NCBI GenBank assembly: GCA_015143295.1
Contig: CM026557.1
Location: forward strand, 22,043,760-22,107,759
Direction: 5' to 3'
Length of the DNA: 64,000 bases
DNA from: Tetracentron sinense
Taxonomy: Eukaryota > Streptophyta > Magnoliopsida > Trochodendrales > Trochodendraceae
In this document: positions 6,090 through 64,000 of the stretch, piece by piece
Layout: each line of letters starts with the position of its first letter
Numbering within the stretch: the stretch's first letter is position 1
Notes under the pieces: model-generated
Told to the model about the DNA's origin: nothing
The model's database searches: none
The model's input: only the letters and a program-made list of their open reading frames with translations
Program-made: the position numbers and the translations under genes

Positions 6090-6132
6090 ATGTTCACTTA
6101 CTTTTTAGTGTGATCTTATCTCATTCTTTTCG

Positions 6133-15165: not shown

Positions 15166-15170
15166 TACCT

Positions 15171-36709: not shown

Positions 36710-37121
36710 GGACACCTAATTTGGGGTTTTAGGATATTCCAAGTCTTTCTTACCTAATGTGGCAAAGAGTGGAGCAAAATCCTAGGTTTTCTAAGGAAAA
36801 TTCTTAGAGGAGCAAAGAAATGATAGAATTAATGAATGTGATGCGAATGCTCTAGTTAGCCTACTTGGATTTATGCATATGGTAAATTATGGAAGAAGAT
36901 GATGATGTGAAGCATGTTAAATGAGTTAAATTATGTATCAAAATTATATGAGAGCATGCTTAAGACTATGAAATAGAAATTGAAATTCATGTGCTATGCT
37001 GATGAAGTTTTATTGCATATATGTCACACACCAATAGTATATGAGCACTTGAATTACATGATCGAAGTTTTGTATAAGTACGGGTATCCGAAAAGTAAAG
37101 TAAAGAAAATGAAAGAAAAAA

Positions 37122-37500
37122 AAGATGTTATTGGGAGGGTGATAGTGTGTTTAGACTAGGTACACCACTATCCACCTGATCTTAAGTAAAACGAAAGAAG
37201 AACATGCTATTGGAGGATGCTACTATGTTTAGACCAGGTACACCACTAGTCATTTGATCTTAAGTAAAACATAGTATGCTATTGGGAGGGTAATAGTGTA
37301 TTTAAACCAGGTACACCACTTTAGGTGATCTCAAGTTAAACAATGGAAGAAATGCTATTGGGAGGATGCTAGTGTGTTTAGACCATGTCCACTACTAGTT
37401 ATTTGATCCCAAGTAAAAGAATGAATAAGGATGTTATTGGGAGGATATTAGTGTGTTTAGACCAAGTATACCACTAATACCCGATTTCAAGTAAAAATGA
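37122..37500. repeat. five-unit minisatellite (72-82 bp) inside the gypsy LTR
   Basis: Five diverged units share ATGYTATTGGGAGG, AGTGTGTTTAGACC, GTACACCACTA and GATCTTAAGTAAAA. Confidence 0.9.
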
Positions 37501-38440
37501 TCAACTCGGCTAAAGTTAAGTAAGAAAATGAAAGATGAAAATATGAAAGTAAAAGACATGAAAAAATGATAAAAGAATATTGTTTTTTTATGAAAGTAAA
37601 GTAAAATATATAGTTTTAAAGAGTACGCACATTGATATCAAAGCTATGATTTTCCGCATATTTGATTTGAAGTATACATGTGATTTAATATTCAGGATAT
37701 ATGAATTGCATATGAAATTCGGTTATGGTGTCTTGATGATTGAGGTACATGACCTACATATGAAATCATGTTTGTAAGCACCCAATTTTTACACCCCATC
37801 CGAACCTTAAACCCTTGGGCTCAAAGCCCGTTTCCATTTAAACCCTAAAACCATAGGACCTAAACCCTAGAACCCCAGGACCTAAGCCTTGGGCTTAAGG
37901 CCCATTACCCTAGGACAAACCGTAATAGAGCCCTAGACCCTAAAAACCTAGGTAAATCCTTTTTGGCTCATGGCCCATTAGCATAGCGAAACCCTAGCCC
38001 AAGACCTAGGACAAGCCCTATGGGCTCAAGGCCCATTTAAAAAACCCAAAAAACCATCAAGTTCTAAAGCCCAAACACCTTGGGGCCCAAACTTGGGCCC
38101 ACCTCAACCCATGAGGATCACATGGGTGGGACCCACAACCCCCTACTCGAATTTGGGCGGGAAATGCCCGAAATGGCTGCCCACAATCCCTTTTGGCCCA
38201 AGTGAGATTGGGCCTGGCCTAAAATGGCATAAATGGCATAATGTCGGTAATTGAATTACCTACATTCCAAATAAGCCTGATTTGGGAATGGAAGTAATTC
38301 GACTACTGCCGTTTCTAGATTTGCATAATCGCGTGTTGCAGACTCCCCCCTGCTCACCCTAGCCACTTGGGACCTCCACCATGACTCACCTCCGGACTGT
38401 TTAATGCCCGAACTGCCCTTGGGGTCCCTCCCATCTCCTC

Positions 38441-38448
38441 TATATAAA
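38441..38448 (+). promoter_or_regulatory. TATA box of the solo gypsy LTR
   Basis: CTCTATATAAACATGG about 670 bases into the LTR. The homologous LTR at 59379-61801 has TATAAA at 61103-61108 on the minus strand. That agreement sets the family's sense direction. Confidence 0.6.
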
Positions 38449-39689
38449 CATGGCCACCCCCATGCATTTCCTAGGCCCGAATCATCCTGTACAAGCTCTG
38501 TCAAAACTCCCCCAGCCCAAATCAACATCATTCCATCCACCTCAGACCCTATCTCCACCTTAGGTAGTCTCTCACACTCCCCCTGGTGCGTCCCTAAGTC
38601 ACTGCACCCCTTTGCATCACTGCTGCATCACCATTACCGCCAAGCTCCGCCACCTACAACCAGCATATCAGGGTAACAGGCCTACCCCCCAGTTGTTGGC
38701 TTCTGTCTCTCATTGTAAGGGACCCCTGGTCCTACTCCAGGGGTCCCATCTTGCTGTTTTCTCATTCCTAGTAGCTTACAACCGAGGATAGGGTTCCCTT
38801 CACCTTCTTCATAGGTGTAGGGGAACACCCTTGAGGTATAACTCGAGTTCAATACCATTTATCATGCTTGGACATTCCACATAAGGCCTTGGGGTCCCTC
38901 AGGCGATGAGGAAACCCCCTAAACCCTTGCTCGTGCATAATACAGTGGAGAAAATGTTTTTTTCAACAAAACAGCTTAATGTCGGCAATACCAATGCCGA
39001 CATTACTAAAAAAGCCTAAAAAGCCTCTGTCCCCATTTAGTTTACCGACATAGTGAGCTTATTTTTGCACCGACTTCGGGCCCCTATGGGGCCCACATGC
39101 CTTGTGCTCTAGGGTTCACCTTAGGTTTATTGGGAAGCCCTTGACCCCCTCTAGCTCCTTACAAAATTTTAGGGCCTGACTCGAAGTTTAACCCTAGTTA
39201 CCAGAGCCCTTAACTCTAATAAAATTCTGTTCTTGGTGTCGGCAGTCCAACTGCCGACACTATAGTCATTTTTGCCTGACTTTAGACCCGTGTGGGGCCC
39301 ACACCTGACCTATTCAGAGGCTACCACCTGGTCCATTGGAAAGAGTGCACTCCAGGCTATCTTCCCATGCCTTTACTTTACCCGGGGGAGGTCCCTAACC
39401 CCAATTACAACCTCACAAACTCTGGTTAAAAAGTTACAAAAATGGAGGTAATCCGATTACCTCCATTTTAAAATTTTTGATTTTAGGATTTGTAAAGGGC
39501 CCAAACCTGGTAGGAGGCCACTCTAGGCCATGCCATACCCTTTGGGCCCATTCTTGACTGACCATGACCTTTAATCATGGTTAAAATGACCCCGATTAAC
39601 TTTTAACCATGGTTAAGCACCACTTAACCCCATAAAAAATATGAAAAAATCCCTAAAAATACAAAGGACCAAAAAATCATTATCTTGGA

Positions 39690-39852
39690 CTTTTTAATCC
39701 TGGTTAGCAACCCTAACCACGGTTAACACCCTCTTAACCCCGATTAGCAACCCTAACCACGGTCAACACTTTTTTAACTCTGGTTAGCAACCCTAACCAC
39801 GGTTAACACCCTCTTAACCCTAGTTAGCAACCCTAACCCTCGGTTAACACCC
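39690..39852. repeat. tandem repeat GGTTAGCAACCCTAACCACGG in the solo LTR
   Basis: Four units of about 45 bases, built from ACCCTGGTTAGCAACCC and TAACCACGGTTAACACCC. It is self-complementary in part (GGTTAA/TTAACC). Confidence 0.85.
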
Positions 39853-40620
39853 CATTTGCCTCTAGGCTTCACCCTTGACCTACCGGGCCTCACCCTAGTC
39901 TACCGAACTACCCCTCGGCCTACCGGGCCCAACGCTTTGCACATTGACCAACCTCGGTCAAGTAAAACCCTAATCTACCGGATTAGGTCCATTGGCCGCC
40001 TTTTGGTGCACACACACGCCCCCTCGCCTTAGCACGGGCTCAAGTGCTAGAACTACGCTCGGTCTGATCTCACCCCAATGTGAGTACGTAGGCAGTCCAA
40101 CACGGGCCTGACCCTAATTAGCTTTTACTTTTTTCCGATTAATATTAACTTAAACACTAAATGACATTCAATTAATATTGAAACTAATTTTGGCTTAAAC
40201 CTAGTAAGTAGGGAACCACCATGTGTGGAAGTGTCGGGGTGCCTAACCCCTCCCCCGAACTTAATCGAACCTCTTAACCCGATCCCTGATCACGGACCAA
40301 GCCTTATCCAATATTTCCGGGGGACTTATCCCTTTTGAATTAATAAGTTACGACTCTAAATCCCGTGAGACATTTTTCTTAGGGAGTGAAATCCCGTGCT
40401 CACAATGTTGTTTTATGACTTCATTGTTTAGTAGTATACATTGAGCCTTCCATGCTCAATCGAACTGTTATTGTTAGCAGGTCCATCTTTTGACATTTGT
40501 GCTCCAACTCTATGGGTGGAGAAAGAGTACATTGAAGACGGTGTCGAGGAAGAACACCCGGGACAAGACAAGGGTCTTAACAAGTGGCCTTACCTTGATT
40601 TATGTTGAGAGGGTGAGGGA

Positions 40621-42508: not shown

Positions 42509-42663
42509 ATGGGTTACTGTTGTTCTCAAGATTTGATCTTGAGACGCGGTACAAGGGGTCGAGGATACCAGACTAGAGGAAATGGAGGGAAAACTCCAAT
42601 GGGCAATGAACAGTCTGATTTCTCTCAGCTGTTGGAGACTATGGTCGACACTATGGCCATTCT
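42509..42663 (+). pseudogene. gag-like start of the gypsy element, cut by the SIRE-like insertion
   Basis: From the ATG at 42509 the frame reads RRGTRGRGYQTRGNGG, then SQLLETMVDTMAIL. A basic RG-rich start like this is common in gypsy gag. It runs into the LTR at 42664 and stops four codons later. The call rests mostly on position after the primer site. Confidence 0.4.
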
Positions 42664-44015
42664 TGTTGCCTAGTTAATGGACCCTAGAGGGGGGGTGATT
42701 AGGGTCAATGGCAATTAAATTTTTTTATCTAAGTGATTAATCCGGAAATAAAATCTAATCACTAATATTGCTACAAGCAAGAACATAATAAAAAGAGAGA
42801 GGGAGAGATACTAATACCACACACAAGATATGTTATCGGGGTTCAGCAACATGCCTACGTCCCTACCTTTAAGCTTTCCGCTTTATGGATTTTCTCACGA
42901 TTCCACTAATTGCACTCTTTTTTACGGGCAAAGAGTAAGCCTTTACAATCCTTTTCACAGGCTTAGGATCAAACCTCTTCAAGAGAGCACTTTTCTTGGA
43001 TACAAGAAGAACCTCTTCTCAAAAGGTGCAAGAATCCTTGATTCTTGACTTAGCTTTTACAGAAATATGTTGGATATGAAATCCGAATTTGAAAGCTCCT
43101 AACTGAGCTAAATATGAATGAAATACAGAGCTAATAATCACTCAAGATTGATTGGAAATGAATGCTCAAAGAATGAGGGATTGGGAATCTAGGTATTCAA
43201 TGTAAAAACAGGGTATTGATTGTTGGAGACTATTGAATAATCAAAGTATGAATGAATAGTGTTAGAATCTTCTATTTAGTTCATAAATAAGCTCTATTTA
43301 TAGTTGAGCAATCAATATGGTCGTTGGAGCACATTTAATGCGAACTAGCCGTTACACCCATTTCCCGCATACACTTGTCAACGAGTGAGTATGGAAAAGC
43401 CCAGAGTCGTCGCCGAGTGGAAATAGTAAGCAATTGAGAATTTCTGTCATTCCACTTGTTGACGAGTCTCTTCCACTCATCGACGAGTCCACTGAAAAAT
43501 TTCAGGGAACTCATCTGTAATGAGACCAAAGTGATGGGAATGGTGCTGTGGTCCTTAGGCAATCTTAATATTATCATTTTAAACATTTTTAGGCCCTAAG
43601 AATTATGTCCAAATTATTCTAGGTCTCCTAGGGTCTATCTAGGTAACCTTTGAGCAATCATATCCAATGTCTTGAGGACTTTACAAGGTCCTAGACATTC
43701 TAAACTTTGACTCTAGTCTTCATTGAATGATCTTGTCCTGGAACTTATGGAGCTTCAGTTTTGACTTGACTTCACGAATTGGCTTGAGTCCTTGAATCTT
43801 TTTCCCTTGAAGTGACTAGTACTTGGACTTTGACCTTGATGACCTTGAATGGTTGAACTCTTCAATTCTTCATATCTTGAATGATGACCTTAATATCCTT
43901 TTTCTTTGAAATTACACATTCTAAATGGAAATATTAGTGTCATAAAGATCATTCCATTATTGTGTTATCATCGAAACTATTAAGGGTACTTAGAGTTGTA
44001 ACCTTGAGGCTAACA
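42664..44015 (-). repeat. 3' LTR of SIRE-like element, copy C
   Basis: Plus-strand ends are TGTTGCC and GAGGCTAACA. It is homologous to copies A and B and contains GTCGAC-related palindromes at about 43374-43490. Confidence 0.87.
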
Positions 44016-44660: not shown

Positions 44661-45867
44661 TCACAGCTTCTGCCTCTTCCTTGCATTGTCAGCCTTGGAT
44701 GTAGTTTCCTTTCTTTTGGAGGTCTTGGACAAGTCTTGAGAAGAGTCAGAGGAGATCTCAGCTGGTTGCTCTTGAAGTGTCTTTTGAGTCTTGGCTTAAG
44801 GTGGCTCAGCAAGTGGTGCTTGAGGTGGAGTTGGAACTTCCACAACAATGGGAATAGGTACAAGCTTAAGCTTCTTTCTGATGTTCAGCATCTCTATGGA
44901 AATTTGATCAACTCTGATAGCCATCTCTCTAATGACTGGGGCCTGAGAGTCCAATAATCCCGTCATATGCTGAATATATATGGCTTGCAAATTCACAGCC
45001 TTCCCCACACTAGTCAAGTCATCACTGTGTTTATCACTCACAACTGAGGCCTCTACTGCCTTCCTCTCACTTAGTGATATTATGGAGTCCACTCTGTTCT
45101 TCACAACCTCACTAGATATCTCAATCTCTGCTAGTCTGGGCTCTAGCACCTCATCTCTCTTCCTCATCTTAACCTTAATAATCTCAATCTTAGATTCTAG
45201 AGAGGATAACCTATCTCTAGTCTCAGATTGGAACTGCAACTGACTCTGCCTCAACTCTAACTGGAATTGCTTCATACTTGAAACCATGGAGGCAATCTGT
45301 CCAGCCATCAAATTCATTTGCTCATCTGAAGGTGCAGGCCTGGTAGGAGAAACAAACTGCTAATGTCCTGAGTCCTCAATCTGAAATGAGTCCTGTCTCT
45401 GTGAGGACTCGGGAAGTTCAATATCAATCATCACATCTAGCCACTCTGGTCTAGTCTCAGTCTCTGGTGTTGCCTCATCATCTGACTCTGCCTGAACTGT
45501 AGGTGCTAGCTCAGCTACTGGTGAATAATGAAGGATAGAGGAATGGGAAGGAGAGAGAGTATGAGAATGAGTAGGTGATGAAATGGGATCATGGGAAGAA
45601 GGGAGTGGAACTGAGGGATCTGGAAAGGTGGAAGGAGGTACTAAAGAAGTAGGGTGAAAAGGTGGAGGAATCGGAGTAGGTAGAGGAGCAGTGGGTTCAG
45701 GGATGATGGAAGGATCAGATGAAGGGATGGTTTGGGATTTAGGAACCCAAACAATACTAGCCTCTATCCATGTATATCCCATACACATGATGGTAGCCTT
45801 GGAATACACATCAGAATCAGTAATAGACTTCTTGTCATGATAGACAGACAAGGGGATTCTAAATGTT
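44661..45867 (-). pseudogene. env-like/downstream ORF of SIRE-like element
   Basis: One minus frame runs from about 45865 to the stop at 44661-44663, with TAG at 45360-45362 and TAA at 44796-44798. The first part has a very Pro/Ser-rich stretch (repeated SPTHSHTLSPSHS-like runs). The second has a coiled-coil-like helix (about 45290-44850, SSLESKIEIIKVKMRKR), then a Pro-rich segment and a Lys/Arg-rich C-terminus (SKTSKRKE, NARKRQKL). Its place between pol and the 3' LTR, and the Pro-rich plus coiled-coil layout, match the extra ORF of SIRE-type copia elements. I assign no function. Confidence 0.6.
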
Positions 45868-48800
45868 TAAAGACTCTGGTTAAGGCAAGACCAAAAGATA
45901 ATCTGCCTAAGGTTGGTGGTGTACACTGTAAAGTTACAAATGAGATATCTGGCATACGAGGTGTTGACAAAGTGTGTTATGTTGACGCTCACCTGAGAAG
46001 CCAAGGACAAACGGGTTGTTAAAAGGGGATATGATGGTGGTGTACACTGTAAAGGTACACACGAGATGTCGGGCATATGAGGTGTCAACAAAGTGTGTTA
46101 TGTCAACGCTCACTTGGGATGCCAACGAAACACGGAGGTGTCACAAAGGGGGACATGTTGGTGCTGTACACAGTAAAGGTACACACGGGATGCCAGGCAT
46201 GCGAGGTGTCGACAAAGTGTGTTATGTCAATGTTCATCTGGGTGCCAAGGACACAGGGGGGTGTCACAAAGGGGGATATGCATGTGGTGTACACTGTAAA
46301 GGTACACACAGAGGATGGTGGGCATGCGAGGTGTTAACAAAGTGTGTTATGTCGATACTCACATGGGATGCCAAGGACACACGGGAGTGTCACAAAGAGG
46401 TCGACAAAATATGTTATGTCAACGCTCACCTGGGATGCCAAGGACAAATGGGGGTGTCATAAAGGAGGACATGCTGGTGGTGTACACTGTAAAAGTACAC
46501 ACGGGATGTCGGGCAGATGAGGTGTCGACAAAGTGTGTTATGTCGACGCTCACCTGGGATGCCAAGGACACACAGGAGAGTCACAAATGAGACAAGCTGG
46601 TGGTGTACACTATAAAGGTACACACGGGATGTTGGGCATACGAGGAGTCGAGAAAGTGTATTATGTCGACGTTCACTTGAGATGCCAAGGACACATGAGG
46701 GTGTCACAAAGGGGGACATGCTGGTGGTGTATATTGTAAAGGTACACACGGGATGTCGGGCATACGATATGTCGACAAAGTGTGTTATGTCGATGCTCAC
46801 CTGGGTGCCAAAGACACATGGGGGAGTCACAAAGAGAACATGCTGGTGGTGTACATTGTAAAGGTACACATGGGATGTTGGGTATACAAGGTGTCGACAA
46901 AGTGTGTTATGTCGACGCTCACCTGGGATTCCAAGGACACACCGGGGTGTCACAAAGGGGACATGCTTGAGGTGTACAATGTAAAGGTACAGACAGGAGA
47001 TTGGGCATAGTAGGTGTCGACAAAGTGTGATATGTCGACGCTCACCTGAGAACCTAAAGACACACGGGAGTGTCACAAATGTGGACATGTTGGTGATGTA
47101 CATTGTAAAGGTACACACGGGATGTCGGGCATGTGAAGTGTCAAAAAAGTGTATTATATCGACACTCACCTGGGATGTTAAGGACATACGGGGGTGTCAC
47201 CAATGGGACATGCTAGTAGTGTACATTGTAAAGGTACACACAGGATATCGGAGATACAATGTGTCAATAAAGTGTGTTATGTCGATGGTCACCTGGGATT
47301 CAAAGGACACACGGGGTGTTAAAAGGGGACATGCTGATGATGTACATTGTAAAGGTACACACGGGATGTCGGGCATATGAGGAGTCGACAAAGAGTGTTA
47401 TGTCGACCCTCACCGGGGATGCCAAGGACACACGGGAGTGTCGCAAAGGGGACATGCTGGTGGTGTACATTGTAAAAGTACACACGGGATCTCGGCAATA
47501 CGAAGTGTCGACAAAGTGTGTTATGTCGACGGTCACCTGGGATGCCAATGACACATGGGGGTGTCACAAAGGAGACATGCTGGAGGTGTAGACTGTAAAG
47601 GTACACATGGGAGGTCGGGTATACGAGGTGTCAACAAAGTGTGATATGTCAATGCTCACCTGAGAAGCCAAAGACAAACGGGGGTGTTACTAAGGGGACA
47701 TGCTGGTGGAGTACCCTGCAAAGGTACACACAGGATCTCAGCAATACAAGGTGTTAATATAGTGTGTTATGTCGATGCTCACCTGGGGTGCCAAGGATAC
47801 ACCGGGTGTTAATAGGGGACATGCTGGTGGTGTACACTATAAAGGTACACATGAGATGCGGGGCATTCAAGGTGTTGACAAAGTGTGTTATGTTGATGCT
47901 CACCTGGGATGCCAAGGACATACGGTGGTGTCACAAAGGGGACATGCTGGTGGTGTGCACTGTAAAGGTACTCACGAGATGTCGGGCATAAGAGGTGTCG
48001 ACAGAGTGTGTTGTGTCGACGCTCACCTGCGATGCCAAGGACACAGGGGGTGTCACAAAGGGGATAAACTGGTGGAGTATACTGTAAAAGTACACACGGG
48101 ATTTCAGGCATAAGTCGTGTCGACAAAGTGTGTTATGTTGACACTCACCTGAGATGCCAAGGACACACGGGGGTGTCACAAAGAGACATGCTGGTGGCGT
48201 ACACATTAAAGGTACACACGAGATGTCGGGATACGATGTATCGACAAAGTGTGCTATGTCGACGCTCACCTGAGATGTCAAGGACACACGGGGGTGTCAC
48301 AAAGGGGACATGCTGGTGGTGTACACAGTAAATGTGCACACGGGATGTCGGGAATACGAGGTATCGACAAAGTATGTTATGTCGATGCTCACCTGGGATG
48401 CCAAGGAGACACAGGAGTGTCACAAATGGGCATGCTGGTGGTGTACACTGTAAAGGTACACGGGATGTCGAGCATACGAGAAGTCGACTAAATGTGTTAT
48501 GTCACGCTCACCTGGGATGCCAAGGACACACAGGGTGTCAAAAGGAGACATGGGAGGTGATGACAAAGTGTGTTATGTTAGCACTCACCTGGGATGTCTT
48601 GTACACACGGGGGTTTCACAAAGGGAACATCCTGGTGGTGTACACTTTAAAGGTACACATGGGATGTCGGGCATATGAGGTGTCGACAAAGTGTGTTACG
48701 TGGATGCTCACCGGCGATATGAAGGACGCACAAAGGTGTTACAAAGGGGACATGCTGGTGGTGTGTGTTGTAAAGGTACACACGGGATGTCGGGCATATG

Positions 48801-49877
48801 AGGTATCGACTAAGTGTGTTATTTCGAAACTTACCTAGTATGCCAAGGACACGAAAGGTATCAAAAGGAGACATGCGAGGTACCGATAAAGTGTGTTATG
48901 TTGGCACTCACCAAGGATGTCTCAGATACACGTGGTTCTCACAAATGGGACATGCTGGTGGTGTACACTGTAAAGGTACACACAGGATGTCGGGCATACG
49001 TGGTGTCGAAAAAGTAAGTTATGTCAACCCTCAAATGGGTTGCCAAGGACACACGGGGTTGTCATAAAGGGGACATGCTGGTGGTGCACACAAGGTATTG
49101 ACAAAGTTTGTTCTGTCGATGCTCACCTGGGATGCCAAGGATATACAGGGTGTCGGGCATATGAGGTTTCGACAAAGTGTGTTATGTCGACGGTCACCTG
49201 GATTACCAAGGACACACGAGTTTGTCACAAAGGGGACATGCAGGTGGTGTATACTGTAAAGGTACATACTTGATGCTTAGTATGTGAGGTGTTGACAAAG
49301 TGTGTTATGTCGACGCTCACCTGGGACGCAAAGGACACACGGGTTTGTCACAATGGGGACATGCAGGTGGTATACACTAGATGCTGAGCATGTGAGGTGT
49401 CAAAAAAGTGTGTTATGTCGAAGCTCACCTGAGATGTCAAGGACACACCAGGGAATCACAAGGGGCACATGCTTGTGGTGTACATTGTAAAGGTACAGAC
49501 GAGATGTCGGGCATTCGAGGTGTCGACAAAGTATGTTATGTCGATGCTCACCGGGAATGCCAAGGACACACGGGGGTGTCTAAAAGGGGGAAATGCTGGT
49601 GGTACACATACTAAAGGTACACAAGGGATATCGAACAAATGAGGTATTGATAAAGTGTGTTATGTCGACGCTCACCTGGGATGCCAAGGACACACGGGGG
49701 TGTCACAAAGGGAACATCCTGGTAATATACACTATAAAGGTACACACAGGATGTCTGGCATGTGAGATGTCGTAAAAGTATGTTATGTCGACGCTCACCT
49801 GGGATGCTAAAAGACACACGGGGGTGTCACAAAGGGGGACATGTTTGTGGTGGACACTGTAAACATGAAATAGGATG

Positions 49878-50240
49878 TCGGGCATGCGAGGTGTCGACAA
49901 AGTGTGTTATGTCAAAGCTCACCTAAGATGTCGAGGATACACGGAGGTGTCACAAGAGGGACATGTTGGTGGTGTACATTGTAATGGTACAGACGGGATG
50001 TCGGGTATTCGAGGTGTTGACAAATTGTGTTATGTCGATGCTCACCTGGGATGCCAAGGACATATGGAGGTGTCCGAAAGGGGGACATGCTAGTGGTGTA
50101 CACAGTAAAGGTACAGATGGGATGTCGGGCATGCGAGGTGTCGACAAAGTGTGTTATGTCAAAGCTCACCTAAGATGTCGAGGATACACGGAGGTGTCAC
50201 AAGAGGGACATGTTGGTGGTGTACATTGTAATGGTACACA
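49878..50240. repeat. dimer-scale duplication in the satellite (period about 247)
   Basis: The unusual variant TTATGTCAAAGCTCACCTAAGATG with CACAAGAGGGACATGTTGG occurs twice, 247 bases apart (49911 and 50158), implying a recent two-monomer duplication. Confidence 0.85.
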
Positions 50241-53200
50241 CAGGATGTCGGGCATGTGAAGTTGCATAAATGTGTGCTATGTCGACGCTCACCTAGGATA
50301 CTAAGGACACACGGGGGTGTCACAAATGGGATATAATGGTGGAGTACATAGTAAAGGTACACACAAGATGTCAAGCATACGATGTGTTGACAAAGTGTGT
50401 TATGTCGACACTCACCTGGGATGCTAAGGACGCACGAGGGTGTCTTAAGAGGACATGCTGGTGGTGTACACAGTAAAGGTACACATTGGATATCGGGCAT
50501 ACGAGGTGTCGATAAAGTGTGTTATATTGACACTCACCTGGGAAGTCAAGGACACACGGGGGTGTCAGAATGGGACATGCTGGTGGTGTACAATGTAAAG
50601 GTACACACGGGATGTCTGGTATACGAGTTATTGATAAAGTATCGTATGTCCACGCTCCTTTGGGAAGCGAAAGACACACGGGGGTGTCACAAAGGGGATA
50701 TACTGGTAGAGTACACTGTAAAGGTACACATGGGATGTTGGGCAGACGTGATGTCGTCAATGTGTGTTATGTTAACACTTACTTGGGATGGTAATGACAC
50801 ACGGGGGTGTCACAAGGGGACATGCTGCTGGTGTACACAGTAAAGGTACACCCGAGATATCGAGTATACGAGGTGTCGACAAAGTTTATTATGTCGACAC
50901 TCACCTGGAAAGCCAAAGACAGACGGGGGTGTCACAAGAGGACATGCTGGTGGTGTACACTGTAAAGGTACACATGGGATATCAATGCTCCCTGGGATGT
51001 CAAGGAGACACAGGTGTGTCCCAAAGGAGATATGCTGTTGGTGTACACTGTAAAGGTGGAAACGGGATGTCAGGCATAAGAGGTGTCGACCAAGTGTGTT
51101 ATGTCGACGCTTACCTGGGATGCCAAGGAAACACGGGGTGTCACAAATTAGACATGTTGGTGGTGTACATTGTAAAGGTACACACAAGATTTCGGTTATA
51201 CGAGGTGTCGGAAAAGTGTGTTCTGTCGACGCTCACTTGGGATGCTAAGGACACATAGGGTGTCAAAAGGAGACATACGAGGTGCCAAAAAAGTGTTCTC
51301 TATTGGCGTTCACCTGTGATGTCTCGGACACATGGGTGTGTAACAAAGGGGACATTGAGGTGGTGTACATTGTAAAGGTGCTCACGGGATGTCGGACATA
51401 CGAAGTGTCGACAATGTGTGTTATGTTGACGCTCACCTGGGATGCCAAGGACACACGGGGGTGTCACAAAGGGGACATGCTGGTGATGTACACTGTAAAG
51501 GTACACACGGAATATTGGGCATATATGCTGTCGACAAAGTGTGTTATGTTGACACTCACCTGGGATGTCTCGGACACATGGGTGTGTCACAAATAGGACA
51601 TCCTGGTGGTGTACATTGTAAAGGTGGTCACGGGATGTCGAGTATACGAAGTGTCGACAATGTCTGTTTTGTCGACGCTCACCTGGGATGCCAAGGACAC
51701 ACGGGGGTGTCATAAAGGTAGACATGCTAGTTGTGTACACTATAAAGGTACACACTGGAATCCGGGCATGCGAGGTGCTGACAATGTGTGTTATGTTGAC
51801 GCTCACCAGGGATGCCAAGGATACACAGGGGTGTCACAAAGGGGCACATAATTTTTGTGTACACTGTAAACGTACAAACTGGATGCCGAGTATGCGTTGT
51901 CTCGATAAATTGTGTTATGTCAATGCTCCCCTGAGATGCCAAGGTCACACCGGGGTGTCATAAGAGGGACATGCTGGTGGTGTACACTGCAAAGGTACAC
52001 ATGTGATGTCGGGCATACGAGGTGTCGACAATGTGTGTTATGTCGACGCTCATCTGGGATGCCAATGACACACGGGGGTGTCAGAAAGGGGACATGCTGG
52101 TGGTGTACACTGTAAAGGGACACATGGATGTCGGGCATGTGAGGTTTTGAAAAAGTGTGCTTTTTTCGATGCTCACTTGGGATGCTAAGGACACACAGGG
52201 GTTTCACCAAGGGGACATGCTGGTGGTATACACAGTAAAGGTACACCCAGGATGTCGAGCATACGAGGAGTCGACAAAATTTGTTATGTTGACGCTCACC
52301 TGGGATGCGTAGGACACACGGGGATGTCACAAAGGGGACATGCTGGTATTGTACACTATTAAGATACACACGGGATGTCGGGCATACGAGGTATCGACAA
52401 AGTGTGTTATGTTGACGTGTACTTGAGATGCAAACGACACACGGGGGTGTCACAAAGGAGACATGCTGGTGGTGTACATTGTAAAGGTACACATGGGATG
52501 TCGGGCATATGAGCTGTAGACAAAGTTTATTTTATCGATGCTCATCTGGAATGTGAATGACTCACGGGGGTGTCACAAAGGAGACATACTGGTGGTGTAC
52601 ACTGTTAAGGTTCACAAGGGATGTCGACAATAAGAGGTGTTAACAAAATGCGTTACGTCGAAGCTCACCTGGGATGCGATGGACTCACGAAGGTGTCACT
52701 AAGGGGACATGTTGGTGTTGTAGACTGTAAATGTACACACAAGATTTCAGGCATACGAGGTATCGACAAAGTGTGTTCTTTCGATGCTCACTTAGTATGC
52801 CAAAGACACATAGGGTGTCAAAAGGAGACATGCGAGGTGCCAAAAAAGTTTGCTATCTTGGCGCTCACCTGGGATGTCTCGGACACATGGTTGTGTCACA
52901 AAGGGGACATCCTAGTGGTGTACTCTGTAAAGGTGCTCACGGGATGTCAAGCATATGAAGTATCGACAATGTGTGCTATGTCGATGCTCACCTGGGATGC
53001 CAAGGACATACGGGGGTGTCACAAAGAGGACATGCTAGTGGTGTACATTGTGAAGGTACACACGGGATGTCGGGCATACATGGTGTCGATAAAATGTGTT
53101 ATGTTGACGCTCACCTGGGATGTCTCGGACACATGGGTGTGTCACAAATGGGACATCCTCGTATTGTACACTATAAAGGTGCTCACGGGATGTCGGGCAT

Positions 53201-54956
53201 ACGAAGTGTCGACAATGTGTGTTATGTGGATGCTCACCTGAGATGTCAAGGACACATGGGATTGTCACAAAGGGGATATACTGGTGGTGTACACTGTAAA
53301 GGTACACACGAGATAGCAGGCATACGGGGTATCGACTAAGTGTGTTATGTCGATGCTCACCTGGGATGCCAATGACACACGGGGGTACCATAAAGGGGAC
53401 ATGTTTGTGGTGTGCACTGTAAAGGTTCACACGGGATGTCGGGCATACGAGGTGTTGACAATGTATGTTATGTCGGCGCTCACTTGAGATGCTAAGGACA
53501 TAGGGGGGTGTCACAAAGAGGACATGCTGGTGGTGTATACGGTAGAGGTATACATGGGATGCCGGGTATACGAGGTGTCGACAAAAATCTCTTATGTCGA
53601 TGCTCACCTGGGATGCAAAAGACACATGGGGGTGTCACAAAAGTAGACATGCTGGTGGGGTACACTGTAAAGGTACACACGGGAATCCGGGCATGCGAGG
53701 TGTTGACAATGTGTGTTGTGTCGACACTCACCAGGGATGCCAAGGATTCACAGGGGTGTCACAAAGGGGGACATACTTGTTGTGTATAATGTAAACGTAC
53801 AAACGGGATGTCAGGCATGCGAGGTCTCGATAAATTTTGTTATGTCAATAGTCCCCTGAGATGCCTAGGTCACACCGGGGTGTCATAAGGGGGGCATGCT
53901 GGTGGTGTACACTGTAAAGGTACACATGTGATGTCGGGCATACGAGGTGTTGACAAAGTGTGTTATGTCGACGCTCACCTGGGATGCCAATGACACACCG
54001 GGGTGTCAGAAAATGGGACATGCCGGTGGTGTACACTGTAAAAGTACACATGGGTTGTCGGGCATGTGAGGTTTTGAAAAAGTGTGCTTTTTTCGACGCT
54101 CACATGAGATGCAAATAACACACGGGGGTTTCACAATGGGGACATGCTGGTGGTGTACACAGTAAAGGTACACCCAGGATGTCGAGCATACGAGGAGTCG
54201 ACAAAGTTTCTTACGTCGACGCTCACCTGGGATGCTAAGGACACACGGGGGTGTCACAAAGGGAACATACTAGTGGTGTACACTATAAAGGTACACACGG
54301 GATGTTGGGCATACGAGGTGTCGACAACGTGTGTTATATCGACGCGTACCTGGGATACAAACGACACATGGGGTTGTGTCAAAGTAGACATGCTGGTGGT
54401 GTACACTGTGAAGGTACACACGAGATGTCTAGCATAAGAGGTGTAGACAAAGTTTGTTTTGTCGACGCTCATCTGGGATGTCAAGGACCCGTTGGGGTGT
54501 CACAAAGTAGACATGCTAGTGGTGTACACTGTAAAGGTACAAGCGGGATGTCAGCAATACGGGGTGTTGACAAAGTGTGTTTCGTTGACGCTCACCTGTG
54601 ATGCCAATGACTCACGGGGGTGTCACTAAGGGGACATGTTGGTGGTCTACACTGTAAATGTGCAGACAAGATTTCGGGCATACGAGGTGTCGACAAAGTG
54701 TGTTCTATCGACGCTCACGTAGGATGCCAAGGACATATAGGGTGTTAAAAGGAGACATGGGAGGTGCCAAAAAAGTGTGCTATGTTGGCGCTCACTTGGG
54801 ATGTCTCGGACACATGGGTGTGTCACAAAGGGGACATCCTGGTGGTTAACACTGTAAAGGTGCTCTTGGGATGTCAGACATACGAAGTGTCGATAATGTG
54901 TGTTATGTCGATGCTCACCTGGGATGCCAAGGACACACGGGGGTGTCACAAAGGGG

Positions 54957-55692
54957 AGATGCTGATGGTGTACACTGTAAAGGTACATACGGGATGTCGG
55001 GCATACATGGTGTCAAAAAAATGTGTTATGTTGACGCTCACCTGGGATGTCTCGGACAGATGGGTGTGTCACAAATGGGACATCCTGGTGGTGTACACTG
55101 TAAAGGTGCTCACGGGATGTCGGGCATACGATGTGTCGACAATGTGTGTTATGTCGACGCTCACCTGGGATGCCAGGACACACGGGGTTGTCACAAAAGG
55201 GATATACTGGTGGTGTACACGGTAAAGGTACACACGAGATGTCGGGCAGACGAGGTATCAACTATGTGTGTTATGTCGAATCTTACCTAGGATGCCAAGG
55301 ACACACGGGGGTGTCACAAAGGGGAGATGCTGGTGGTGTACACTGTAAAGGTACATACGGGATGTCGGGCATACATGGTGTCAAAAAAATGTGTTATGTT
55401 GACGCTCACCTGGGATGTCTCGGACACATGGGTGTGTCACAAATGGGACATCCTGGTGGTGTACACTGCAAAGGTGCTCACGGGATGTCGGGCATACGAA
55501 GTGTCGACAATGTGTGTTATGTCGACGCTCACCTGGGATGCCAGGACACACGGGGTTGTCACAAAAGGGATATACTGGTGGTGTACACGGTAAAGGTACA
55601 CACGAGATGTCGGGCAGACGAGGTATCAACTATGTGTGTTATGTCGAATCTTACCTGGGATGCCAAGGACACACGGGGGTGTCACAAAAGGG
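54957..55692. repeat. trimer-scale tandem duplication in the satellite (period 368)
   Basis: Two nearly identical 368-base blocks (54957-55324, 55325-55692), each three monomers, share rare variants such as TGTCAAAAAAATGTGTTATG, GATGCCAGGACACACGGGG and ATCAACTATGTGTGTTATG. This is the freshest duplication that I see in the array. Confidence 0.9.
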
Positions 55693-57470
55693 ACATGCTG
55701 GTGGTGTGCACTGTAGAGGTTCACACGGGATGTCGGGCATACGAGGTGTCGACAAAGTATGTTATGTCAACACTTACCTGGGATGCTAAGGGCACACAGG
55801 GGTGTCGCAAAGAGGACATACTGGTTGTGTATCCTGTAAGGGAATACACAGGATGCCAGGTATACGAGGTGTCAACAAAGTGTGTTATGTCGACGCTTAT
55901 CTGGGATGCCAAGGAGACACAGGGTTGTCACAAAGGGGATATACTGGTGGTGTACACTTTAAAGGTACACACGAGATGTCGGGCATACGAGGTATCGACA
56001 AAGTGTGTTATGTCGACGCTCACTTGGATGCCAAGGACCCACGGGGGTGTCAGAAAAGGGGACATACTGGTGGTGTATACTGTAAAGGTACACATAGGAT
56101 GTTGGGCCAGTGAGGTTTGAAAAAGTGTGCTTTTTTCGACGCTCACTTGGGATGCCAAGGACACACGGGGGTTTCACAAAGAGGATATGCTGGTGGTGTA
56201 CACAGTAAAGGTACACCCAGGATGTCGAACATACGAGGAGTCGACAAAGTTTGTTATGTCGATGCTCACCTGGGATGTCAAGGACGGTGTTACAAAGGGG
56301 ACATGTTGGTGGTGTACACTATAAAGGTACACACGGGATGTCGGGTATACGAGGTGTCGACAAATTGTGTTATGTCGACGTGTACCTAGGATGCAAACGA
56401 CACATGGGGGTGTCATAAAAGAGACATGCTGGTGGCGTACACTATAAAGGTACACATGGGATGTCAGGCATACGAGGTGTAGACAAAGTTTGTTTTGTCA
56501 ACGCTCATCTGGGATGTAAAGGACCCATGGAGGTGTCATAAAGGAGACATGCTGGTGGTGTACACTGTAAAGGTGCACATGGGATGTCAGTAATACGAGG
56601 TGTTGACAAAGTGTGTTACATCGACGCTCACCTGGGATGCCAAGGACTCTTGGGCGTGTCACTAAGGGGACATGTTTGTGGTGTATACTGTAAATGTACT
56701 CACGAGAGTTCGGGCATACGAGGTGTCGACAAAGTGTGTTCTATCGACGCTCACTTAGGATGCCAAGGACACATAGGGTGTCAAAAGGAGACATGCGAGG
56801 TGCTAAAAAAGTTTGCTATGTTGGTGCTCACCTGGGATGTATCAGACACATGGGTGTGTCACAAAGGGGACATCCTAGTGGTGTACACTATAAAGGTACT
56901 CACGGGATGTCGGGCATATAGTGTGTCAACAAAGTAAGTTATGTCGACGCTCACCTGGGATGCTATAGACACACGGGGGTACCACAAAGAGGATATGTTG
57001 GTAGTGTACACTATAAAGGTGTGCACGGGATGTCGGGTATACGAGGTATTGATAAAGTGTGTTATGTCGACGCTCACCTGGGATGCCAAGGACACACGGA
57101 GGTTTTACAAAGGTGACTTGCTGGTGGTGTACACTGTATAGGTACACACGAGATGTCAGGCATACGAGGTGTCGACAAAGTGTGTTATGTCGACACTTAT
57201 CTGGGATACCAAGGACACACATGGTGTAAAAAAGAGACATGCGAGGTACCGACAAAGTGGGTTATGTTGACTCTGATTTGGGATGGCTCGGATACATGGG
57301 GGTGTCACAATGGGGACATGATGGTGTACACTGTAAAAGTACACACGACAAAATTTGTTATGTTGACGCTCACCTAGGATGCCAAGGACATACAGGGGTG
57401 TTGAAAAGAGGACATGCTGGTGTACACTGTAAAGGTACAGACGAGATGTCGAGGACACATGGGGGTATCA

Positions 57471-59378
57471 AACTTGTTTGAGGCATGATGCCGGATTTGA
57501 TATTGATATGGTCGAGAGGCACTGGATTTTGATCATGTTTGGAATAATGCTGGGGAGCAACTGGAATGCAACTGTAGTGGCAACTTGATTAAATGCATGC
57601 AGTTAAAGTGCAATGTGTTGTGTGACTTGAAAGTATTGGATGAGGCTTTCACCTTGGATGCAACTAATGTGTAGCTAGGGTGTATTGTGGATGACTCGAT
57701 TGAGTGCATATAGATAGTGTGCAGTGTAGCTAGAGTGTAATGTGTGTATTGACTATGCAGGAACATGTGCATGAATGACATGCACGACTTGACCTATGTT
57801 GATGCATGGAAGGCTCGACTAGTCTTGGTTTCCATGGTGTGGCATGAAGGTTGATGGAGGGCTGGGTATATGACTCGCTTTTGGAGACCAGTCCTTTGCC
57901 AATTGAAGATTCTAGAGGCATTCGATCTTGCTCTTGCTTCTTGTTGGAACTATGATGCATCTTGGGCGATTGCTGAGTTTTGTTTTATCTGGCCAACCCG
58001 ATGGACAGACACTTGGAGGGTGATTGATCTAGAGAGTATTGGGATTCTGGCGATGATTGAGAGACGTCACAGGATTTGACAGACTCGGGAGACTTCGAGG
58101 ATGGTTGATCCGATGAGTATGAGAACTCTTGCGGCGACAAGAAGGAGACTCAGAAGTTGAATGCTTCCTCCGCTTATGTGGTTTAACAAGGAGATCACTT
58201 TCACAGGGTGAATGGATTATGCTCTTAAGGGTAGAGTACGATGCTAAACAGATTTTTCTTGTTGTGACATTGATGAAGCCGTGTTTTGCCCGTTTGCGGA
58301 GTAGGGCTTTGCCGGGGAGTTGAGGTCGCTTTGCCAATAAGACTTGCTCTCCTTTGCTATTGCTGGAGATTGGACTCCGACTGGGGAGAAGCTTGCTGGG
58401 GAGCTTCTAGACTTTTGTTGGGGATAGTATTGTAGAGAGCAATTGGAGGCTTCTACTAGGGATCCGTTAGGGAATGTGACACTATTGTGGACCCTTACTG
58501 AGGATCTGCCGAGGAGTGACACTTTGCTAGAGATCGTCAACTGTCTGCTGGGAAGTTGAACTCTATTGGGGAACTATTTTTTTCAGTGCCATCTACTGGG
58601 AATGATTGGGAGTTTGGATAGACTAGTTGCTGCCAGATTTTGTTGTCAAACTGCTCTTCAGCTTTTCTCCTTTTTTACCCTTGGAATGACCAAGTCATGG
58701 GATTCACATAATTTTTGCACAATGAGGCCGTTGCCGGTTTTCCTCATGCCTACGAGGCTGATAGGTTTTCTTCTCTTTTTTGCCCTTGGTCTCGAGACCA
58801 GGTCTGGGGTTCGCGTAATTTTTGCGCACCAATACCATTTCTGGTTTTCATCGGACCCACGATGGATTTGAACGGAGTTTTGTTCCCGTTGTCTTGGATA
58901 TCGGTATCTTGCTTTCGGATACTTGCATGATAAGCTTCTTGCACTTTCAGTCTCTAGGGGATCTAGGAAGACTTGTGATAGGACGAAATGTAGGCTGGGG
59001 GACCGAAGTTTGGAACACCTTGGGATTTCTCCTTTGTAGTTACTCTTTCGGTGATCTTATCCATTATACTCTCATGGGGATTCGTACTTTTGGATTTCTA
59101 GCCGATTTTTTTTTACTCCGCTAGGAAATTTGAGAGAGGTTGTCCTTACTGGGGAAGGTTTCGAGAGAGGTTGTCTCTACTTGGGGAATGTTTTTCAAGA
59201 GAGATTTTTCTTGAAAGGTGTTTGCTGGGGACAAAGTCCGGAGAGCTTTTCTATGTGAGGAGTCTCTGACTTTGAAAATGTTTCAACTTCTATTTTGAGT
59301 TTTTCTTAGATGACATTTTTGTACCCTTGAGAGTTGACTTGAGAGGATTTTTGCTTTGTTTAGACTTTGCGGAGAGAC
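57471..59378 (-). other. non-coding internal block of a gypsy element, copy 1
   Basis: Same sequence family and order as 62491-64000. Both start with a GATGCYGGATT...TTGATATGG motif, then many GCTGGGGA-type motifs, then a duplicated segment with CATAATTTTTGCACAATGAGG (two related copies at about 58670-58870), then the LTR side with TTTCAACTTCTATTTTGA. No polymerase or gag motif is found, and the frames present are short and overlap on both strands. It adjoins the LTR at 59379. Confidence 0.75.
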
Positions 59379-61801
59379 TGTGAACATGGGATTTCACTCC
59401 CTTTTAAAAATCTCACGGGATCGCTAAGAGTTGCCACTTATTTGTTCAGAAGGTTTAAGTCCTTGGGAAATATTGGACAAAAGGAATTGGTCTATGATCA
59501 AAGATCGAGATAAGAGGTTTGGTTAAGTTCGGGGAAGGGGTTAGGCACCCCGACACTTCCACACATGGTGGTTCCCTACTTGCTAGGTTTAAGACAAAAT
59601 TAAACAACTACCGAAGTGTTTAAGTTAATACTAACTGGAAGAAAGTAAAGCTAACAAGGGTCAAACCCATGTTGGGTTGCCTACGTACTCACATTGGGGT
59701 GAGATCAGACCAAGCGTAGTTCTAGCACTTGAGCCTGTGCTACGGTGAGGGGCTGTGTGTGTGTGCACCAAAAGGTGGCTAATGAGCCTAATCCGGTAGA
59801 TTAGGGTTTTGCTTGACCGGGGTTGGTCAATATGCAAAGTGTTGGGCCCGGTAGGCCAAGGGGTAGTCCGGTAAACTAGGGTTTAGGCCCGGTAGGCCAA
59901 GGGTGAAGCCCAAAAGTAAAGGGGTGTGTTAACTCAGGGTTAGGGTTGCTAACCAGGGTTAAAAGGAAGTTAACCATGGTTAAAAGGTCCAAGATGAAGA
60001 TTTTTTTATCTTTTATAGTTTTCTGGATTTTTAGGGATTTTCCCAAATTTTGTGAAGTTAAGTAGTGCTTAACCATGGTTAAAAGTTAACCGGAGGCAAT
60101 AATGGTTAAGGGTCATGGTGGGTCAACAATGGGCCCAAAGGGCATGGTAGGACCTAGAATAGCCTCCTACCAGGTTTGGGCCCTATCGGTAATGAGATTA
60201 CCGACAACATGCTCAGTAGATTAATCCAGGTTTGGGGCCTTGCTAACCTTGGTTAGGCTTGGCCCCTGAAAATGAAATTTTGTAGAGAGAAGGGTCAGGG
60301 CTTCCAAATAAGCCTGGGTTGGACCCAGGGGTTGAGGTATGTGGACCCAACGAAGGCCCAAAGCTACTGCAAAAAGGCCTGAATATGTCGGTAATCAGAC
60401 TGCCGACAGTCTGATATCTTAAGTTTGTAAGCAAACTAACCATGGTTAGAAGCATGGTTAGGGTCTGAATTTGTGCAGAGAGATTGCCAAGGGCTTGGGG
60501 TAACTAACCATGGCCCTAGAATTGACCAGGGCCTTGACTAACCCTAGTTAGTGAAGCAAACACAGAGAGTGCACATAGGGTTGGTAATCCTATTACCGAC
60601 CACTAGTAGATTTTAAAAAAAAATTGATTTTCTCCTACAGGGGCTGCACAAATTAGGGTCCAAATTGCTTGAGGGACTCCCAAACCCTTGTGAAGAGTAA
60701 CCAAGCACATGGGAGGGGTGTTGTACCCATGCATGGCCTCGAGGGATTCCCTTAAGCCTATAAAGAAAGCTAGGGACCCTGTCCTTGGCCCTGAGAAACC
60801 AAGATACACTCAAACAGATGATAAGATGGGACCCCTCGAGTAGGACCAGGGGTCCCTTACATTGGTAAGGAAAAGAAAGCAAAGGGGGTGGGTCTAGTAC
60901 CCTCGCACAGTGGATACACCCACGGTGGCAGCTAAACGGTGGTGGTACAAAGGCTGAGGTGACTCCGGAGATGGCCTAGGAACCTAACTGATGCTGTATA
61001 GGGGATAGGATGAGTGGCTAAGGATGGAGGGAGGTAGGTGGAGCTCGGGTAGGGGTTGGACATGAAAAGTGGGAGTGTCCAATGCATGGGGGTGCACTGG
61101 GATTTATAGGGGAGAAGGAGAGGCCCTTAGGGGCAGTTATGGCATTAAAAGATTTGAAGGAGACCAATAGGGGAGGACCCAAGGTGCCCAGGTGGCTGTA
61201 GGGGGAGCCTACACACACAACTGCAGAGTTTCAAGAATGGCGGTAATCGAATTACCACCACCCAAAACAAAGGTGAAATTAGGGTGTCGGTAATTCAATT
61301 ACTGAGACTCAGTGGTTTTTGCTATTACGGGATAGGCCCTCACACACTTGGGCCAAAGAGGGGATAAGCTTGCCACTAAAGGGTTTCCCGCCCGTTTTTG
61401 AACTTGAGGGTGTGTGGGTCCCACCCTACCGGACCCCTAAGGTTGGTGGGCCCAAGTTTGGGCCTCCCAAAGGCTTAGGACCTTGGGATTTTTGGTGTTT
61501 TGGACTGTTAAATGGGCCTTGAGCCCGTAGGGCTTACACCTAGGTTTCGGCTAGGGCTTAGGGTAGGGTTAGGTCTAGGGTTGGTCCTAGGGCTCACCTA
61601 GGGTTAGTCCTAGGTTTTAGTCAGGGCTTACCTAGGGTTTAGCCTAGGGTTTGGGAATTTTAAGGGTAATGGGCCGTGAGCCCAAAAGGTGTAGGTTCTA
61701 GGGTTTGAGGGTATACCTAGGGTTAGGCCTAGGGCTTAGTTCTAGGGTTTCTATTGGGGACTCCACTGAGGTTCATAGGGTGTAAAAATTGGGTGCTTAT
61801 A
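59379..61801 (-). repeat. gypsy LTR (3' LTR of the right element, 5' side of the left block)
   Basis: 2423 bases. The plus strand starts TGTGAACATGGGATTTCAC and ends AAATTGGGTGCTTATA, the inverted homologue of the solo LTR at 37773-40404. The terminal dinucleotide on the right is TA instead of CA. TATAAA lies at 61103-61108 on the minus strand. Both sides carry element-internal sequence, so it is shared by two element copies in tandem. Confidence 0.88.
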
Positions 61802-61817
61802 GCTGCCCCTCTTTGCC
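61802..61817 (-). other. polypurine tract of the gypsy element
   Basis: The minus strand reads GGCAAAGAGGGGCAGC directly before the LTR start TATAAGCACCC. It orients the element and marks its 3' end. Confidence 0.75.
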
Positions 61818-62039
61818 GGAGAGTGCCAGGATGACAATTGAACGGCAAAGACTAGATTCATCCTATTTTTACATCGAGATGGATGATGAGATGTATGCAT
61901 GCTACGCAAATGTGGAGTGTGGTGAAGTGGTGAAGACTATTGCTAGGGGATAGTGAGTAGCTGGGGATGAAATATGGATGTAGAGATGGCGTGACACGGA
62001 GGTACTGGCCGAAACGGTGTTTCCCGGAGGATATTAACC

Positions 62040-62490
62040 AAGTCGATCGGGAGACACACAAGGTGTCAGGAACACGCGGGGTGTAGGGAACACACGGGAT
62101 GTTGGGAACACACGGAGTGTTGGACAAGTGAGGTGTTGGCATATTGACTCGGCGTCAATGGAGACTTGGGATGTCAGGGACACATGGTGTGTCAAAAAAA
62201 AGGACATGCAGTGAGTGTTGGCACGTTGACAAGGTGTGTTTTGTCAAAGGAGACTCAGACGTCGAGATCACATGGGGGTGTCTCTGAGGGGACAGGCGGT
62301 AAGTGTCGGCAGGTTGACTCGGTGTCAATAAAGACTCTATGATGTCAAGAATGTACAGGGACGTCTCTGAGGGGACATGTGGTGAGGGTCGGTAGGTTGA
62401 CTCGGCGTCAAAGGAGACTCTATGATGTCAAAGACACACAGGGGTGTCAAGGGGTATACACTATCCAGGTACAAGAATGTTTCAAAGTTT
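62040..62490. repeat. short degenerate tandem repeat, likely progenitor of the satellite
   Basis: About five irregular units (the last ones 80-90 bases) carry GTTGACTCGGCGTCAA, GGAGACTCTATGATGTCAA, GACACACAGGGGTGTC and GAGGGGACATG. The end carries GGTATACACTATCCAGGTAC. These correspond in order to the satellite motifs GTCGACAAAGTGTG, GATGCCAAGGACACAC, GGGGGTGTCACAAAGGGGAC and GTGTACACTGTAAAGGTAC. Confidence 0.8.
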
Positions 62491-64000
62491 TGAAGGAAAT
62501 GATGCTGGATTGACCTTGATATGGCCGAGGCGCTGAAGTTTGATCATGTTAGATGATGCTGAAATGTTGGTCATGCAAGGTATGATGCTATGCAAGTGAG
62601 GTCATGCAAGGGATAAAGGCGAGGATGCTTTTCCATGACTCTGTTGACTGCTGCTTGCTGGGGAGGCGCAGAAGCTGCTCATCTTGTTAGGGCTGCTTGG
62701 TGCAGGTTAGTTCAACGGATTTTGAAACCAAGAATTTGTTTGTTCTTGAAAATCTTTTTCAGAAAAAGTGTAGAAGACTTTTGCAAAGGTTTTTGATTTT
62801 GGCACATGGCTTAAGGGGATTTCAGATTCCCTTTTTCTCTCTAAGAGTGGAGTATGATTCAGAGCAGAATGCTATTAGGGATAGACAAGTTTGTCTAAAT
62901 GCTGTTGCAAGCTTCTGGACTCATGCTGGGAAAAATCTTTTCTGCTAGGCTTTAGAAGCTGGCTGAACTCTTGCTAGGGCAGAGCTGTTAGAGGCTTTTA
63001 CTGAGGGATCTGCTAGGGATTGAAGATTGTTACCGCCTGTTGCTGGAGGATCTACCGGGGAGTAGGTCTTTGTTGTAGACTACTGGCTGGGGAGTAAGTC
63101 TCTGTTGTAGACTACTGTCGGGGATCTCGGGATTTTCAGTCTGCTGGGGATTTTCCAATGTTTGTCTATATGCTGGGGATATGTCTTGGAGTAACACATC
63201 TGCTGAGGGTATTCCCTGTTGGAATCTCTGTTAGGGATATGACCTATCGAGAGATGCTGACTACTGAGGGTATTAAGGAGTCCGATGAGCCTGATTGCTA
63301 CCGGGTTGTGTTGTCGAACTGGTTTTCAGCTTTTTCTCTCTTTTTTATCCTTAAAATGATCAAGTCACGGGGTTCGCATAATTTTTGCGCGATGAGGCCG
63401 TTGCCGGTTTTCCTCATGCCTGCGAAGCTGATTGATTTTTTGTCCCTTTTTTACCCTTAGCCGTAAGACTAGATCGGGGTGTCACATAATTTTTGTGCAA
63501 TGAGGCAATTTCCAGTTTTCACTCATGCCCGTGACTTGTTGGGGAAATAAGTATGCTCCCTTCATCGCTCTGATAGACACTTGGGGTTGATACTCCGCTG
63601 AGGGATGTAGATATGATGTTGCGCTTGCACTCGTAGTTTCTAAGGGATCTAGGAGGACTTAGAGTGGGATGAAACATAGGCTGGAGGACCGAAGTTTGGG
63701 ACACCATGGAATTGTTTCCTTTGCTGCAACTGGCTTGCATGGGATTTTCTACTGGAGACTTGTACCTTTGGTGCTTCCAGTGAATTTTTTTTCTCCATTG
63801 GGGATTGTCCGCTCTGGTAGAGGTTGATTATTTGGGGATTTTTCTCCACACGGGGAGAGTTTGGATTTGTTTCTACTAGGGAGAGAAGTTGATTCTGTTG
63901 GGGATAAAGCCCGGAGAGATTGTTTTCGCTTGGGGTGTCCCTCACTTGGAGAATGTTTCGACTTCTATTTTGAATTTTCCTTTTAATAGAATATTTTGTA
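62491..64000 (-). other. non-coding internal block of the gypsy element, copy 2
   Basis: Homologous and collinear with 57471-59378. It is rich in GCTGGGGA motifs, with a duplicated CATAATTTTTGTGCAATGAGG segment at about 63340-63530. The window ends at the point matching about 59325 in copy 1, some 50-60 bases short of where the next LTR should start. Confidence 0.75.

Follow-up and report, generated by a model that had tools for sequence, protein, structure and literature searches.

A 123-bp tandem array in Tetracentron sinense as a probable expansion of the hypervariable 3' untranslated repeat of an Ogre-like Ty3/gypsy retrotransposon family

The origin of satellite DNA from retrotransposon repeats is a topic that Macas et al. 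reportedly treated in 2009 (Gene 448:198). In Lathyrus sativus, satellites have been traced to the tandem repeats in the 3' untranslated region (3' UTR) of Ogre elements, and scenarios of expansion and of capture were both discussed (PMC7004042, Plant J. 101:484). The minisatellites of the soybean element Gmr9/GmOgre reach up to 149 repeats per locus, and 90% of their copies are associated with the element (PMC3305785). Approximately half of the Retand elements, which belong to the Tat clade, carry tandem repeats between pol and the 3' long terminal repeat (LTR), and some are non-autonomous; their pol-3' LTR region measures 2.9-6.6 kb and contains an antisense TRP28 open reading frame (ORF) (PMC11963269). 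The present analysis concerns a 64,000-nucleotide stretch of plant nuclear DNA from Tetracentron sinense (C7:22043760-22107759 of a 1.16 Gb assembly), hereafter the window, which holds a long array of ~123-bp units. Very probably, it represents the tandem repeat of the hypervariable 3' UTR in a Ty3/gypsy family of the Tat clade (Ogre-like), which has become expanded in a single old copy.

The array spans 11,560 bp (45911-57470), corresponding to 94 x 123 bp as delimited by Tandem Repeats Finder (TRF) and a unit search, and its right end directly adjoins block A (57471-59378), the non-coding block of a copy termed element 1. This agrees with an earlier interpretation of the same letters, hereafter the original prediction, which had described an array of about 11.5 kb ending in the non-coding block of a gypsy element and amplified about 90-fold. 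Block A is followed by an LTR (59379-61801) assigned to a second family member, element 2. A one-unit query returned 99 matches in the window, of which 81 were full length by the rule used. The units of the window array are 80% identical to one another, while the identity is 93-95% within five arrays of lineage I (C2, C5, C14b, C17, and C22) and 85-87% in C7a, C13, C14a, and C19. Self-alignment revealed tandem blocks of ~2 kb (51310-54734 vs 53234-56647, 3430 bp, 83.9%; 52863-55183 vs 54913-57220, 83.3%; 51326-53227 vs 55299-57190, 83.9%), beside which local duplications of 1-3 units were also present, and the most frequent nearest-neighbour lag was 16 units (13 of 61 within-array cases). Whole arrays in young elements measure roughly the same, and this match in size suggests duplication of array-length blocks in the window array.

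The matches listed among 224 yielded 39 distinct sites, the window included, and flanks were fetched on both sides at eight other sites and on one side at a ninth. All eight two-sided sites presented the same order in a single orientation, namely LTR, a conserved segment (PPT_r) on the side of the presumed polypurine tract (PPT), array, and 3' UTR block, and a second LTR was observed within the fetched 10 kb at five of them. PPT_r adjoined the array in 9/9 other copies read. The start and end of the array were collinear in each copy read, with the ninth site agreeing on its one flank, and each of the nine arrays whose flanks were read sits inside an element. In the copies read, the repeat always occupies the same place, flanked by the pol-side 3' UTR and by the PPT/3' LTR, and the proposed location in the 3' UTR and linkage to the element are thereby supported at these sites. 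The repeat thus occurs as short arrays at a fixed place of the element, as is characteristic of a satellite derived from a retrotransposon 3' UTR. By coordinates alone, 14 of the 39 sites lie no more than 15 kb from one of 40 scored 3' UTR sites; the orientation agrees in all 14, and 13 lie within 1.7 kb, where 0.04 would be expected by chance. In a separate 4-kb search with 39 array matches (one second match at a counted site, C1:20045996-20046459, was dropped), 17 had a neighbour among the 40 sampled 3' UTR sites, which in 16 cases was 188-202 bp away and in the same orientation.

Copies with intermediate repeat counts had been expected by the original prediction, and such a ladder was observed. 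The arrays at the eight other sites span 376, 515, 790 (mixed), 822, 1252, 1744, 2106, and 2110 bp, arrays of 3 to about 18 units were found inside other element copies, and the window holds ~94 units. Matches of the 4-kb search measure 1115-2860 bp (median 1503), these being alignments and hence lower bounds. Arrays outside the window thus range over 0.4-2.9 kb, and the window array is about four times longer; no array match >2.9 kb was found outside the window by the 4-kb search and a 34-mer listing, which are not exhaustive. With a single mismatch allowed, a 25-mer taken from the unit occurs at 2133 places genome-wide (reversed control 0), 32 of which are in the window array. The stricter 34-mer occurs at 59 places, and their complete listing shows no site apart from the window with more than two (the window has three over 6.1 kb), a weak test given that its 94 units yield only 3 matches and that diverged long arrays could escape. 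Since all nine flank-read arrays are inside an element and no second array of this size was found in this non-exhaustive search, it is doubtful that the array is a satellite in the usual sense.

The LTR pairs of three array-bearing copies are 99.7, 99.8, and 98.6% identical, that of a fourth is 96.0% identical over 569 bp, and the two LTRs of C19 are 84% alike in their first part. In C2, C17, C14b, and C5, the stretch from block A to the 5' LTR measures ~4.8 kb and matches only the ends of the element 2 internal region, so that most of pol is missing. At the sites examined, the carriers of 1-2 kb arrays are thus recent insertions with pol deleted.

At the collinear place, element 2 carries a short form of the hypervariable region, as the original prediction had noted for the neighbouring copy. 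A satellite profile matched 62040-62480 with 24.8, 22.4, 18.9, and 10.5 bits, the third match including the junction motif, as compared with a maximum of 8.0 bits in 599 dinucleotide shuffles and one reversed copy; a fifth match (6.9 bits) is at chance level. The four matches above all shuffles bear out the motif-by-motif homology proposed between the short repeats and the satellite. The junction motif GGTATACACTATCCAGGTAC was found once in this region, at 62453. Eight further copies, chosen by their PPT side and not by the satellite from the 39 other PPT_r places, were read over 2 kb each; all eight showed the short form, and no run of 123-bp units was found in the 2 kb read. A rotated unit profile gave best scores of 22.7-40.6 bits in all nine short regions (the window's included), with a maximum of 12.7 in 900 shuffles. 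In several of these regions, the match extends over roughly positions 1-105, and the junction forms the end of a second, partial unit. With up to four substitutions allowed, four of the nine regions, the window's among them, hold one copy of the junction, that of C12 holds two that are 32 bp apart, and the remaining four hold none.

The 123-bp unit has the order of a whole minimal region, which consists of an 18-bp-like part, a core, and the junction. Based on the rotated-profile matches in the nine short regions, the short form can be interpreted as one to a few decayed units of the 123-bp repeat. Short-form units (~85 bp spacing) followed by 123-bp units were observed in one array of the C19 copy. 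In a related copy (L036:234-687), the PPT side of the region holds a different tandem array, with 4.9 copies of a 92-bp unit that appears to be made from PPT-side sequence.

The coding part of element 2 is located to the right of the window on the minus strand, with reverse transcriptase, RNase H, a second RNase H (RVT_3), and integrase running toward the window. In stretch L009 (minus strand), RVT_1 was assigned to 2822-3424, RNase H to 2204-2623, RVT_3 to 1835-2200 (2e-07), and integrase to 1032-1763. A second RNase H (aRH) between RNase H (RH) and integrase is described for angiosperm Ogre and Retand as the Tat layout (PMC6317226), and the RVT_3 match in the RH-integrase interval places the family in the Tat clade of Ty3/gypsy. 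Given the coding part on the minus strand, the short repeats lie between pol and the presumed PPT, beside the latter and the 3' LTR, as in Tat/Ogre elements. The putative PPT, GGCAAAGAGGGGCAGC, is the sense strand of 61817-61802 and immediately precedes the LTR start. Four bases after the 5' LTR, TGGCGACTCYRCTGGGGA was read in four copies as a putative primer binding site, which may be of the tRNA-Arg type of Ogre. Ogre elements have an additional ORF that precedes gag in the same direction; a DUF7745/PMD-like fragment was detected close to the 5' LTR and in the direction of pol (L010:4739-5299, 7.8e-08), and gag was not identified.

The two family LTRs measured in the window (2423 and 2632 bp) and the alignments of 2.5-2.7 kb in three other copies fall outside the LTR range of 315-1194 bp given for Retand (PMC11963269). 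The last Pfam-supported integrase base corresponds to window position ~64972, which limits the pol-3' LTR region to about 3.2 kb or less. Where the broken pol ends did not emerge from one further frame tried, which gave no Pfam match, and none was obtained in the six antisense frames scanned. The one solo LTR read (37773-40404, 2632 bp) has ATGTT at both sides. Part of the 5' region of element 2 is doubled within L010:1621-6556 (1621-2591 and within 3855-6556), possibly as an internal duplication or as the remnant of a second element. The features of the window are collected in Table 1.

Table 1. Repeat-related features of the window, in order of position.
Feature	Position	Strand	Basis or remark
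Solo LTR, same family	37773..40404	+	ATGTT at both sides
~123-bp unit array	45911..57470	+	TRF and single-unit search; read as expanded hypervariable repeat of the element's 3' UTR
About three ~2 kb blocks (16-17 units each) within array	51310..57220	+	Self-alignment, 83-84% alike
3' UTR block A, element 1	57471..59378	-	Same-place matches in other copies; A/array junctions; cut at 59378 by element 2 LTR
3' LTR, element 2, 2423 bp	59379..61801	- (sense)	Homologous to solo LTR 37773-40404; PPT directly adjoining
Putative PPT, element 2, sense GGCAAAGAGGGGCAGC	61802..61817	-	Named by place and composition; not identical but collinear in 9 other copies
PPT-side conserved 3' UTR segment PPT_r	61802..62039	-	39 other places, 81-87% identity, among 40 scored
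Short form of the hypervariable region	62040..62480	+	18-bp repeats, 83-bp type units, one junction motif
Junction motif	62453..62472	+	Single copy here; counterpart inside 123-bp unit
3' UTR block B, element 2	62481..64000	-	Runs beyond the window toward minus-strand integrase

At the sites examined, the content of the fixed address varies among copies of the family from a few decayed units to 123-bp arrays of 0.4-2.9 kb. Slippage or strand transfer, whether chromosomal or during replication of the element, would account for the shifts in unit number. The long array would have grown as blocks of array length slipped or were exchanged unequally. Element 1 would have lost its PPT-side end and 3' LTR through a break near 45911, with another family member coming to lie at 59379. 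Position 45911 has the look of a breakpoint rather than of a natural array end, since none of the 39 other listed copies of the repeat on its left continues into the array.

Several points weigh against this interpretation. None of these steps was observed directly, and the left end of the array adjoins another dispersed repeat, without PPT or LTR. A further 22 of the 39 array matches have no nearby site among the 40 best-scored 3' UTR sites and are shown neither to be free nor to be linked, and one match lies 7 kb from such a site. The interpretation covers eight two-sided sites, one one-sided site, and eight PPT-side stretches only. Long arrays can be missed, as the window's own array was absent from the results of the 4-kb search. 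Arrays elsewhere that are never linked to the element and predate it had been named by the original prediction as evidence that would contradict it; no unlinked array occurred among the nine flank-read ones, and the 22 matches count neither way.

A compatible variant of the 3' UTR expansion places the growth in the RNA/cDNA cycle, in which array length would be reached by strand transfer between repeats and not by exchange after insertion. It is favoured by C17 and C14:34.66M, which have 11 vs 18 unit matches and identical PPT-side segments. However, no array match >2.9 kb was found outside the window in the searches above, and the block copies of the window differ by about 16%, so that block growth is old and could be chromosomal. 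We regard this variant as possible, though rather unlikely.

It is also conceivable, with somewhat less confidence still, that the tandem array acts as a strand-transfer hotspot, whereby its growth and shrinkage and the joining of PPT and 3' UTR sides of different lineages would be one process. The PPT side of C13 is 90% identical to that of C2 (207 columns), while its 3' UTR block is 74% identical to C2 (444) and 85% to L036 (249). Trees were built for both sides from rows picked by similarity to the window, a sample that is not neutral, and were midpoint rooted for drawing only, with no outgroup; L030, without a 3' UTR block match, and W1, without a PPT side, are each missing from one tree. 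Approximately unbiased (AU) tests of recombination at the array gave p 0.069 for the 3' UTR block (without W1, C19, and L030) and p 0.20 for the PPT side with the same rows, and p 0.22 for the 3' UTR block with W1 and C19 in the group. A first AU test (p 5.5e-39) was set aside because its group lacked W1 and C19, which belong to it. The fair tests are without significance, and the case for recombination at the array is suggestive only.

The original prediction regarded the short repeats at 62040-62490 as the ancestral seed and the 123-bp unit as that seed plus its flanking junction, amplified alongside. This would fit the single junction in four of nine short regions and the minimal-region order shown by the unit. 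On the PPT-side tree, the 123-bp copies C2, C5, C14b, C17, C13, and C14a adjoin two short-form copies, which also speaks for a seed; this tree needs two changes of repeat form, and holding all non-short rows together was not rejected (p 0.35). However, blocks A and B are only about 71% identical in their best 433 bp and are therefore not recent copies of one element; 62040-62480 belongs to a diverged sister lineage. The LTR between the two blocks and the following one on the right do not form a pair (76% alike over the first ~540 bp), and in the 3' UTR block tree the 123-bp arrays occur in both major lineages, on both sides of the midpoint root, with the short form on one side of a branch with support 97/95. 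The short form could be a seed or a decayed remnant, as the trees do not tell which of the two came first. A seed and its product lying side by side is thus not supported, and the seed explanation is considered improbable. Weakest of all is the capture of an independent satellite that then spread with the element, which is very unlikely because, despite window units more diverged (80%) than those of young elements (93-95%), as in an old satellite, the address and the ends are the same in each copy read, the homology reaches copies without an array, and the 34-mer listing, weak as it is, shows no other site with more than two matches.

Element 2 may itself be a recombinant, since its two LTRs are 76% alike and the left one is 85% like the solo LTR. 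A nested insertion of element 2 into element 1 with target duplication was rejected: GAGAC before 59379 is not repeated after the LTR end in L011 (CCTAG), and the region that in other copies follows block A was found to the right only at the places used by element 2 (L009 and L010), with none in L011 or L012.

Other features were also observed in the window. A direct repeat (4560-6075 / 9839-11336, 94.4%) flanks a copia-type gag ORF at 6367-7839, and 4560-11336 is probably a copia element with LTRs of ~1.5 kb. A gene of aldehyde oxidase / xanthine dehydrogenase type is present in pieces on the minus strand at 20905-26830, the best protein relative being 73% identical. Four to five copies of a ~80-bp tandem repeat (37106-37496) lie immediately left of the solo LTR, and a dispersed repeat pair (15169-16552 / 42662-44015) is 77.6% identical. 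At 44799-45866, two adjoining minus-strand ORFs share one frame with one stop between them and gave no significant Pfam match; the end of this stretch is a repeat with 39 other listed copies, cut at 45914 by the array.

One genome that presents few-unit, 3-18-unit, mixed, and ~94-unit states beside LTR ages could allow the growth steps of a nascent satellite to be ordered, and the gain is a clear further example together with a lead on growth by blocks of ~2 kb. The seeding of satellites by Tat/Ogre 3' UTR repeats, on which the original prediction relied, is already published (PMC7004042), and this locus adds one more element family. Lathyrus Ogre resembles the present family in its short tandem repeats between pol and the 3' LTR, some of them in pol-deleted non-autonomous copies, and in having longer arrays too; its expanded arrays are located in primary constrictions, whereas here the one long array is still joined to the 3' UTR on one side (PMC7004042). 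Gmr9/GmOgre is likewise an Ogre element with a polymorphic minisatellite downstream of the coding region, made up of five interleaved short families, unlike the single 123-bp unit with its sister form of 83-bp type found here (PMC3305785). Retand shares the Tat clade, the tandem repeats between pol and the 3' LTR, and the non-autonomous members, and differs in its LTRs of 315-1194 bp and antisense TRP28 ORFs from the present family, in which the LTRs measure 2.4-2.7 kb and the six antisense frames scanned showed no TRP28 (PMC11963269).

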